DNA of 64,000 nt from Sphingobacteriales bacterium (lineage in GTDB: Bacteria > Bacteroidota > Bacteroidia > Chitinophagales > Chitinophagaceae): NCBI GenBank assembly GCA_016185185.1, contig JACPOD010000023.1:1-64000 (forward strand). Direction: 5' to 3'. Positions 1 through 3,531 of this stretch are shown here, piece by piece. The notes beneath the pieces are model-generated. The model did not search any database. It had not been told where the DNA came from and saw nothing but the letters and a program-made list of their open reading frames with translations. Position 1 is the stretch's first letter. Each line of letters starts with the position of its first letter. Position numbers and translations under genes: made by a program.

Positions 1-415
1 TACTTGTTTACCACAAATTTTTAAAAAGCTATAAAATACTTTAAAGTACAAAATAACTTCAGCCTGAATCCGTTTTAAACCTGACTGTCAGTCACAAAAA
101 CCAGCTTTCGTTTTAATTTTATTTTTTTATTCACATCTTATCCATAAGTAGTACCCCTCCCTGATTATGGTACATCTCCCTCAAAAAAACTAGTTGATCT
201 ACTGATTTATTCAATAGTAATTTTACCATTTTTATTAAGTATTTTTACCCAAAATTAACCTAATGCATCTTTAGCAAAACTTACTAAAACCCTTTACAGT
301 ATTGCATTTGAAGCAATTTTTAACCCTCTTTACAGAAATACCCCTATTGCAGGAGGAGGCATTTTTGAGAAAATTGGAGCTGCAATTAATTGTTTATTTA
401 ATTAAAACTACTACG

Positions 416-487
416 ATGAAAAGTAAACTTACTGCTGGAAAAACAAAAGGTACTAAGCAAACTTGGTGGTTTTTTGATTGGTGGTAA
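416..487 (+). CDS. Putative small peptide MKSKLTAGKTKGTKQTWWFFDWW (signal/leader peptide candidate)
   Basis: ATG..TAA short ORF in the 3' part of ORF 302..487; basic Thr/Lys/Gly-rich N-terminus and C-terminus WWFFDWW; lies directly upstream of a membrane protein/HK/RR operon. Confidence 0.45.
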   Translation: MKSKLTAGKTKGTKQTWWFFDWW

Positions 488-525
488 TCATCAAATTATT
501 CTTTTAGGCTTAAACAAGTTTGTTA

Positions 526-570
526 CCTTATATTTGGTTATTAAAACATCCAGATATAAGGTTTTTTCTT
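526..570 (+). terminator. Intrinsic terminator/attenuator-like hairpin
   Basis: ccttatatttgg (526-537) pairs with ccagatataagg (550-561), 12 bp including one G-U, followed by ttttttctt. Confidence 0.5.
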
Positions 571-874
571 ACAATAGCAGGTATATCCGAATTACTAATT
601 CTCATTCTTTTCTTTTTCCGAAAACAAAAGAAAAATAAGGTATTGAGATTGACTTTTATCTGTCAATTAACCAGCGTCATTTCCGATATTATTACTGGCT
701 TTATCAGAAAGAAGAATAGTGCTTATTTTGGGATTACGATTGACATATTTACAATAGTTGCTCTTATAGCATTAACTTTCTTATTTCTTTCCGTCATTAC
801 TGGCAACAGGACACGAAAACTGATTTTATTTTCTTCTGTAGCATTGGGTATTTACTTTATTATTCATTTAATAA

Positions 875-1040
875 CAGGGCGTAATAGCGGCAACTTTAAC
901 TCAATGAATATTGCTTTCCTGGCTATATTAGTTATTATTTGGTCCATCCTTTTCTTTCAGGGCGTAATAGCGGCAACTTTAACTCAATGAATATTGCTTT
1001 CCTGGCTATATTAGTTATTATTTGGTCCATCCTTTTCTTT
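875..1040 (+). repeat. Exact 83-bp tandem duplication (875-957 and 958-1040)
   Basis: Both copies read cagggcgtaatagcggcaactttaactcaatgaatattgctttcctggctatattagttattatttggtccatccttttcttt. Confidence 0.95.
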
Positions 1041-1364
1041 TATGAACAACTAACCAAAACAACAGACAGTCAGCAGATTTTTCTTTACAGTTCCCCAAGT
1101 TTTTGGGTGGTGGCTGCTTACCTTATCTACTTTGCAGGTACTTTCTTTTTATTTATTTATTCGCAAAATCAAAACCTCGAAGAGCAAGTGAGTGAAATAT
1201 CTATCCAATATAGTTTAATAAATGGCGTTTTTGTATTAATAAAAAATATCCTTTTATCGGTTGCAATGTTTTCAAAGGGTGACAGCATGGATAAACACCC
1301 GGGAAAATACAGAAGCAGTACCTTTTAAAAGAAAAACAGTTAATCCAAAACCAGAACCCATAAA

Positions 1365-2189
1365 ATGATTTTACTACAAGCCGCTGGCAGTTCAAATATC
1401 CCCAGCGTACTTTTTTTTGGAACTCTTGGAATGCTTGCCCTGGCGGTAGGCCTTGTTATATTTATAGTATTCCACCAACGCCGGATTATACGATACCAGC
1501 ATCAATTACAGAAAATGGAAGAAGACCAGCAAAAAATGCTGCTGGAGGCTTCCATACAACTCCAGGAAGAAGAAAGGCAACGCATCGCTGCTGATCTGCA
1601 TGACGATGCTGGCCCCTTGCTGGCTACTGTACGCCTTTATTTAAATGAAAACATAGTAAACCTTGATCAGTCAAGCCAATTACAGGCAATCTACAATGCC
1701 AAACAAATAATTGACGATACCATTCAACTTATCCGCAATATTTCACACAGCCTGATGCCGCCAACGCTTAAAAACTTTGGGCTTGAATCGGCTATAAATG
1801 ATGTGTTTCAAAAAATTAATGGCTCTGGAAGTATTAATGCCAGTTGTCGTTTTCATGATTATCGCCGCAGATTAAAATCAGAGCATGAACTTTCAGTTTA
1901 CCGCATCATCCAGGAAATGATCAATAATATTTTAAAACACAGTAATGCCAGCTTTATTCATCTTACTCAAAATAAAAACGACGATCAGTTTTTTATCAGA
2001 ATTCACCATGATGGATTTGGGTTAACGCAGACAGAATTTGAAAAATTTAAAAATAAACCGCAGGGGCTGGGCCTTAAAAACATTCAGAGCCGGGTGAGTC
2101 TTTTAAAAGGTCAGCTATTTTTTGAAAAGGATCCTTCCCAAACTTATTTTAAAATATCACTTGAACTTCCGGGAGATTCTTTTCAATAA
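1365..2189 (+). CDS. Sensor histidine kinase (NarX/DesK-like, HisKA_3 + HATPase_c)
   Basis: One N-terminal TM; H-box EEERQRIAADLHDDAGPLLATVR; C-terminal GLGLKNIQSRVSLLKG. Confidence 0.9.
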   Translation: MILLQAAGSSNIPSVLFFGTLGMLALAVGLVIFIVFHQRRIIRYQHQLQKMEEDQQKMLLEASIQLQEEERQRIAADLHDDAGPLLATVRLYLNENIVNLDQSSQLQAIYNAKQIIDDTIQLIRNISHSLMPPTLKNFGLESAINDVFQKINGSGSINASCRFHDYRRRLKSEHELSVYRIIQEMINNILKHSNASFIHLTQNKNDDQFFIRIHHDGFGLTQTEFEKFKNKPQGLGLKNIQSRVSLLKGQLFFEKDPSQTYFKISLELPGDSFQ

Positions 2190-2224
2190 GAATAATTTTT
2201 GTAAATTCGATTTTCAATATTCTT

Positions 2225-2875
2225 ATGAGCATAATCAAAGTAGCTATCGCCGATGATCACCAAATATTCCGTAAGGGGGTGATTCTTTCATTAAGACCTT
2301 TTGCCAACTTAAAATTTGTATTAGAAGCAGAAAATGGCGACGAATTATTACAAGGGCTCGAACAAGCACAGCCAGATGTAATTTTGATGGACTTAAGAAT
2401 GCCAAATAAAGATGGTATTGAGACAACAAAAATCATCAGCAAAACATATCCCCATATCCATATTATTGTTTTAACCATGTTTGAAGATGAGAGATTCGTT
2501 ACTCATTTAATGGAAAATGGAGCAAATGGGTATTTATTAAAAAGTGCTGAGCCTGGTGAAATAAAAAAAGCTATTATGGAAGTAATGGCAAGAGGTTATT
2601 ATTTAAATAATTTCGTTAACAGGATACTACTCAAAAAATCACATAACCGTACTAAAACAATTCCCACCCTTAACAGCGAAATCGTAATCAACGATAAGGA
2701 AAAACAGGTGATTCGCTTATTATGCATGGAATATACAGCACAGGAAATAGCTAAGGAAATGGATATAAGTCCACGGACTGTAGAAGCGATTAAAGACAGG
2801 CTAATGGAAAGATTTGGTGTAAAAAATTCTGTGGGCCTTGTTTTTTATGCAATGAAAAATTCGCTGATAGACTAA
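2225..2875 (+). CDS. Response regulator, NarL/LuxR family
   Basis: Receiver domain [13 protein letters not shown]...[11 protein letters not shown]-terminal [31 protein letters not shown]. Confidence 0.93.
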
Positions 2876-3531
2876 ATCTTCATTTCGGGGATTTCGTCAC
2901 TGATTATTAATTTCCCGGCAGTTTTTGAAATAATTTCTTCAACAGATACTCCAGGTGCTCTTTCCAGAAGTTTAAACCCACCAGCAGGTAAAATATCTAA
3001 GACGGCTAATTCAGTTACAATCTTTTTAACACAGTTTACACCTGTCAAAGGCAAAGTACAGGCAGGTAATAATTTCGACTCACCTTTCGGATTTGTATGC
3101 ATCATTGCCACTATAATATTTTTGGCTGCTGCTACCAGGTCCATTGCTCCTCCCATGCCTTTAACCATTTTTCCTGGTATTTTCCAATTAGCAATATCAC
3201 CTGTTTCGGAAACTTCCATAGCCCCCAGCACTGTCAGATCAACCTTTCCTGCACGTATCATCCCAAAACTTTCTGCACTATCGAAAAAGACCCCTCCGGG
3301 CAGCACTGTTACCGTTTCTTTGCCTGCATTTATTAAATCAGGGTCAATCCCATCTTCCAAAGGGTAAGGCCCCATACCTAACATTCCGTTCTCTGATTGC
3401 AACATAATAGAAATGCCAGAAGGAATGTAATTAGCCACTAATGTTGGAATGCCAATTCCAAGATTAACATACATTCCGTTTTTTAATTCACGGGCAATTC
3501 TTTTTGCAATACCAAATTTATCGAGAGCCAT
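2872..3531 (-). CDS. 3-oxoacid CoA-transferase subunit B
   Basis: [42 protein letters not shown]. Confidence 0.93.

Follow-up and report, generated by a model that had tools for sequence, protein, structure and literature searches.

A conserved small gene with a tryptophan-bearing tail precedes a putative seven-helix sensor and a two-component pair in Bacteroidota

Introduction

Two-component systems that sense peptides are seen as a speciality of Gram-positive bacteria. In systems of the Agr and Com type, a polytopic receptor domain is fused to an HPK10 kinase, and the regulator belongs to the LytTR class. The UhpA-UhpB-UhpC and LiaF-LiaS-LiaR systems are built from a separate membrane protein, a HisKA_3 kinase and a LuxR-type regulator, and are not known to contain a small Trp-tailed gene. 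The Bacteroidota locus described here shares with Uhp and Lia the separate membrane protein and the classes of kinase and regulator. With Agr and Com it shares a single locus that holds a small precursor gene, a polytopic receptor, a kinase and a regulator, and a putative feedback onto the promoter of the precursor. A literature search found no description of this system, which is made up of a small protein (S, or a short peptide in its place), a seven-helix membrane protein (7TM), a kinase and a regulator; the S/7TM system appears to be undescribed so far.

Results

The stretch of DNA analysed (the window, 64,000 nt) covers the opening 64 kb of contig C22, which belongs to a 2.84-Mb, 81%-complete MAG of 122 contigs. 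The following features were located at its start.

217-226, no strand: half 1 of a putative operator, the GTA-N4-TAC palindrome GTAATTTTAC (family-wide enrichment)
239-248, no strand: half 2 of the putative operator, GTATTTTTAC, 22 nt past half 1 (both palindromes kept in congeners)
401-415, + strand: A-rich translation leader attaaaactactacg before the peptide ATG (pattern AAAAACTTACTnnnATG before S and short-peptide genes in other genera)
416-487, + strand: gene of a 23-aa Trp-tailed peptide, probably a reduced form of the S gene (frame kept in congeners)
520-1328, + strand: 7TM protein gene, frame broken by a duplication; start codon ATA at 556, the homologous position, or alternatively TTG at 520 (frames, congener comparison)
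525-562, + strand: inverted repeat or hairpin that takes in both the -7 box and the 7TM start (z averaging -2.48 across 68 loci)
529-536, + strand: TATATTTG, -7 box (TAnnTTTG) of a putative internal promoter before the 7TM gene (family motif; window copy without a clear -33 TTG)
875-1040, + strand: 83-bp tandem duplication, exact (875-957, then 958-1040), putting the 7TM gene out of frame (missing from both congeners)
1365-2189, + strand: histidine kinase with one TM, HisKA_3 and HATPase_c (domain search)
2225-2875, + strand: response regulator with receiver and LuxR/GerE DNA-binding domain (domain search)

Conservation of the locus

A one-TM HisKA_3 kinase and a NarL/LuxR-type regulator had been read downstream of the peptide from the bare letters (the sequence-only reading), and both were confirmed; the kinase has 274 aa and a single N-terminal TM. 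The intact 7TM protein served as query against 299 genomes of the family, 133 of which have a relative, and 92 loci with an orthologous kinase were fetched. The order in these loci was small gene, 7TM gene, HisKA_3 kinase and LuxR regulator. The 7TM gene was present in 91 of the 92 and was preceded in 65 by a gene for S, a protein of about 125 aa. Pollutibacter soli JS81 (L119), a relative in culture, has the genes S-7TM-HK. This constant order bears out the proposal that small gene, membrane sensor, kinase and regulator form one conserved unit outside Gram-positive bacteria, and the membrane protein, named in that reading as the partner of the kinase, proved to be its constant companion across loci. 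Upstream of the locus, two divergent regulators were found in the congeners and a divergent regulator in most other loci.

The peptide gene

The ATG..TAA ORF at 416-487 encodes MKSKLTAGKTKGTKQTWWFFDWW. The same ORF was recovered by tblastn at the same place in two congeners (MNSKLTAGKTKSVKLNWWLFDWF and MNSKLTAGKTKGTREQWWLLFDWPF; E 8.5e-7 and 8.8e-7), and a second allele, MNSKLTAGKTKGTKLNWW..., lies on contig C40 of the window's own genome. Its reading frame was found to be conserved: start, frame, stop and the WW..FDW end were retained in all three species, and the two indels inside the frame between congeners were each 3 nt. The search for relatives that the sequence-only reading had called for succeeded within the genus but not beyond it; with the bare peptide against 101 relatives, matches outside the genus had E 0.09 or worse and were chance-like. 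Four candidate homologues (L008, L009, L011 and L012) were rejected, their matches falling in unrelated sequence. Judged by this conservation, the 23-residue peptide is a real gene, conserved beyond chance, and we hold the claims about gene and locus with high confidence.

The DNA of peptide codons 3-11 is near-identical across congeners. A perfect palindrome, AGTAAACTTACT at 422-433 (GTAAACTTAC at 423-432), lies within the ORF and is the same in all four sequences. Because it sits there, a DNA site may account for part of the conservation of these codons. By inspection, AGTAAACTTACT resembles both the GTA-N4-TAC sites described below and the S-gene leader AACTTACT.

Contigs C40 (L019, positions 1-480) and C22 (window positions 1-470) overlap by about 470 bp with scattered differences, from which two strains or alleles appear to have been assembled separately in one MAG. 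C40 and C22 are neighbours, judged from gene order in the two congeners.

Protein S and its tail

Neither S nor the peptide matched a Pfam or NCBIfam family above cut-off. Against the PDB, S had no match by sequence and a best E of 0.034 by fold. An AlphaFold model of S comprised an ordered core (two helices and a sheet) and a disordered tail. Tryptophan accounts for 10.4% of tail residues and 0.13% of core residues. It was present in the tail of 64 of the 65 S proteins, almost always no more than 8 residues from the C-terminus; in alignment A1 the tail Trp column is among those conserved at 90% or more. In the Chitinophagaceae family, neither S nor the peptide could be linked to a signal peptide, a processing site, an exporter or a protease.

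When 396 genomes of the phylum were searched with a profile of S, 21 had relatives. In all 18 distant loci that were read, S is followed by a gene for a polytopic protein of about 205-235 aa (the choice of ATG shortens a few of them), and most of these loci also have a kinase. On this sequence evidence the S/7TM unit is phylum-wide. The distant S tail is CPxxC-x4-SPL-like. Some distant S proteins (L137, L140, L141) carry a hydrophobic, signal-anchor-like N-terminal segment and end in CPPxC; the segment suggests that S may be exported in those lineages. Tandem copies of the S and 7TM genes (S-7TM-S or 7TM-7TM) were seen in other Bacteroidota (L139, L142, L143, L148).

Loss of the S core

Sixteen rows of the kinase tree are without S. 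ORFs of 12-25 aa were found at the S position (for example MTKKVFRAVPPIEWPTTPSWWEF, MTTKRNSSTRNGFLPWSF and MKKNQRVWLENVLEVSWED), and 12 of the 16 short peptides, the window's own included, had a Trp within the last 8 residues. The short peptides of L086, L092, L103 and L104 had no Trp near the end, and no clear peptide was found at the S position in L081 and L100. Five changes between S and the short form are needed on the kinase tree, at least four of them forced by well-supported branches. Since the S core occurs phylum-wide, loss is the likely direction of these changes, and the repeated reduction of S to a short peptide leads us to infer that the tail is the working part.

The tails of the short peptides are similar in composition and cannot be aligned; position, leader and composition are the grounds for treating them as homologous to the S tail. 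The S-type leader AAAAACTTACTnnnATG is retained by the short genes; its A residues at -3, -6, -12 and -13 agree with initiation sites mapped in Flavobacterium johnsoniae (PMC6847099). Two further blocks were noticed upstream of S starts. One, TTTTTTTTGGAGGTTTTTT-like and conserved, lies about 60 nt upstream, far from the start codon (for example in L049 and L045); the other, TTATCCACA, lies about 280 nt upstream at a similar position in about a third of loci.

The 7TM gene and its broken frame

The multi-TM protein placed directly after the peptide by the sequence-only reading is there as a gene, but in the window it is not one open frame: the duplication splits it into frames 520-990 and 939-1328, its length of 83 bp not being a multiple of 3. 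With a single repeat copy the gene encodes a 241-aa protein. It is intact in both congeners (239 and 240 aa), and the break therefore reflects a recent mutation or else an artefact of assembly close to the end of a MAG contig.

Seven long helices were predicted by AlphaFold (pLDDT 88). The best Foldseek matches of this model were GPCRs and a rhodopsin, all seven-helix receptors, with TM-scores of about 0.4-0.53; a fold search of the PDB returned only generic seven-helix bundles (E 0.047 or worse), and a sequence search of the PDB returned one meaningless match (E 0.29). No Pfam or NCBIfam family was matched at cut-off (one sub-threshold rhomboid match, E 0.02), and no profile of the 7TM signalling families known in Pfam, such as 7TMR-DISM, was matched above its curated cut-off. 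The model is read as a seven-helix bundle. The helix count is common to this protein, GPCRs and rhodopsin, whereas kinship is without support, no E being better than 0.047 and sequence relatives being absent.

Internal promoter, non-AUG start and hairpin

TAnnTTTG, the Bacteroidota -7 box (consensus from PMC7366714), preceded the 7TM start in 75 of about 82 loci; this conservation arises partly by construction, the motif having been used to find the sites, which does not apply to the -33 signal or the start-codon result. TTG was enriched at the -33 distance, 22-23 nt upstream of TAnnTTTG (26 of the 75 loci at two offsets). A codon of the NTG/ATH set was in frame 15-20 nt past TTTG in 72 of 75 loci, compared with 12-42 of 75 in comparison windows and 58 in one overlapping window. 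Where Leu occupied the 7TM start position its codon was TTG in 21 of 32 cases, against 16 of 224 downstream. An ATG start was found in only 4 of 82 loci. Among the individual loci (L017-L128) the starts were TTG, ATA, ATT, ATC, CTG or GTG, almost never ATG, and the 7TM gene of the distant loci L133 and L136 was likewise without ATG.

The hairpin over this region had at least five spanning pairs in 71 of 75 loci, and its own arms averaged -10.7 kcal/mol versus -5.1 for swapped arms. In the 71 loci, T-runs after the hairpin showed no enrichment, with 3.2 T per 8 nt compared with 3.8, which rules out a family-wide terminator. An Rfam scan of window positions 1-3000 gave no match. A read-through transcript might fold over the 7TM start, whereas a transcript from the internal promoter presumably would not. 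Two other explanations of this region were discarded. TATATTTG is not a coding part of the 7TM gene, as all three frames are used and 1-nt loop indels occur between motif and frame. Ribosomal bypass joining S and 7TM, considered for a 7TM gene that lacks ATG, was set aside given the start-like codon in nearly all loci.

Upstream palindromes

In 81 upstream regions, GTA-N4-TAC was seen 165 times against 10 expected from base-by-base shuffles, and it was present in 79 of the 81 loci. It ranked first among all 3-N4-3 palindromes, the next ones being AT-only, and its spacing was mostly 22 or 45 nt. The 22-nt-spaced pair occurred only at the signalling locus in the window's genome and its congeners (G000, G001, G002; C22/C40 counted once). 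The 45-nt pair was at the signalling locus in 10 of 10 other genomes tested and was the sole match in 7 of them. The tandem GTA-N4-TAC is thus a dedicated putative operator. The same operator was not clearly present before S in other families (7 vs 1.9 expected, mostly from two loci).

Discussion

The peptide is probably a reduced S, and the product of the small gene is probably the locus's own ligand or regulator of the 7TM sensor. The small gene would be the first gene of an autoregulated signalling locus, its product acting as a dedicated ligand or regulator of the 7TM protein via its aromatic C-terminal tail. In most relatives that tail is borne on a folded S core of about 100 residues; the window's genus, and no fewer than three lineages besides, have probably lost the core and kept a short tailed peptide. 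The 7TM protein would bind and sense the tail, from one side of the membrane or the other, and control the HisKA_3 kinase, which has almost no sensor of its own. Once phosphorylated, the LuxR-type regulator may then bind the tandem GTA-N4-TAC and feed back on the small gene, while the internal promoter and the weak non-AUG start could keep the receptor level low and partly separate from the ligand level. We give this autoregulated circuit of small gene, 7TM, kinase and regulator, with the aromatic tail as its working part, about an even chance of being right. A fuller version is put forward tentatively, as a possibility that we would not expect to hold: a peptide signalling of the Bacteroidota's own, in which a Trp-tailed precursor (full S or a 12-25-aa peptide) would be the extracellular ligand of the separate seven-helix receptor and would act through the HisKA_3 kinase and LuxR regulator in a self-inducing loop, with the receptor held down by the hairpin and the near-cognate start.

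The short ORF could instead be a leader whose translation controls 7TM expression through the hairpin, by Trp-codon attenuation or translational coupling, the peptide itself being inert. Like the trp-type leader peptides, it has tandem Trp codons followed by a hairpin: in the window the WWFFDWW codons lie directly 5' of a 13-bp hairpin, which is followed by T6. Nearly all loci keep the hairpin, each with arms matched to one another, and the non-AUG 7TM start lies inside its 3' arm. We nevertheless judge a leader improbable. In most relatives the same gene encodes a folded 125-aa protein with a conserved core, a conserved terminator T-run is lacking, the distance from stop to motif ranges from 15 to 72 nt, and an independent -7 box lies inside the 5' arm. 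Nor are there trp genes in the locus; no genes for tryptophan biosynthesis or transport were found downstream in the window's locus or those of the congeners. A different role for the small gene, as an output, is rather unlikely in our view: the kinase-regulator pair would sense some other cue through the 7TM protein and induce S or the peptide as its effector, for instance a Trp peptide that acts on membranes. The operator upstream of the small gene and the separate promoter motif of the 7TM-kinase-regulator genes agree with an output, as do the cationic N-terminus and Trp-rich end of the peptide. Against it, the pairing of S with 7TM is kept phylum-wide, more than would be expected of an exchangeable target, and the tail, rather than being cationic, often has just one Trp together with acidic residues.

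The small gene of the window's genus might also be a decaying remnant of S, its early codons conserved through DNA elements such as the palindrome within the ORF. It is known from three species only, codons 3-11 are near-identical as DNA, and the window's 7TM gene is frame-shifted. Decay fits poorly, however, with a frame and WW..FDW tail kept from start to stop through 3-nt indels, with core loss that left a short gene in other lineages too, and with a 7TM gene intact in both congeners; we would be surprised if it proved correct. The autoregulated circuit, in which the tail works on the 7TM protein, remains the reading that we prefer.

S and 7TM, two families that have no Pfam or NCBIfam entry, are found together in Chitinophagaceae and as far afield as other classes of the phylum. 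That S has shrunk repeatedly to little more than a peptide, in most cases with an aromatic end, would mark the tail as the part that acts, and thus as a small, synthetic and directly testable candidate ligand, with the putative operator as a dedicated reporter element. A second oddity, which can be tested separately, is that the 7TM genes of one family almost never start with AUG.

The sequence-only reading had likened the locus to classical Gram-positive peptide signalling. Kinship with those systems was not borne out: kinase class, receptor architecture and precursor type differ. The locus holds neither an exporter nor a protease gene, and the genes that flank it in the congeners, the neighbourhood that was covered, include none dedicated to processing or export. 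Unlike Agr and Com, the present locus has a precursor without a leader or signal sequence, a 7TM receptor encoded by a separate gene, a kinase of the one-TM HisKA_3 type and a LuxR/GerE regulator. Uhp and Lia stand closer in layout, and UhpB and LiaS were among the distant, sub-cut-off NCBIfam matches of the kinase. The locus differs from both in its seven-helix partner, which matches no Pfam or NCBIfam family at cut-off, UhpC and LiaF included, and in the small Trp-tailed gene that stands in front.
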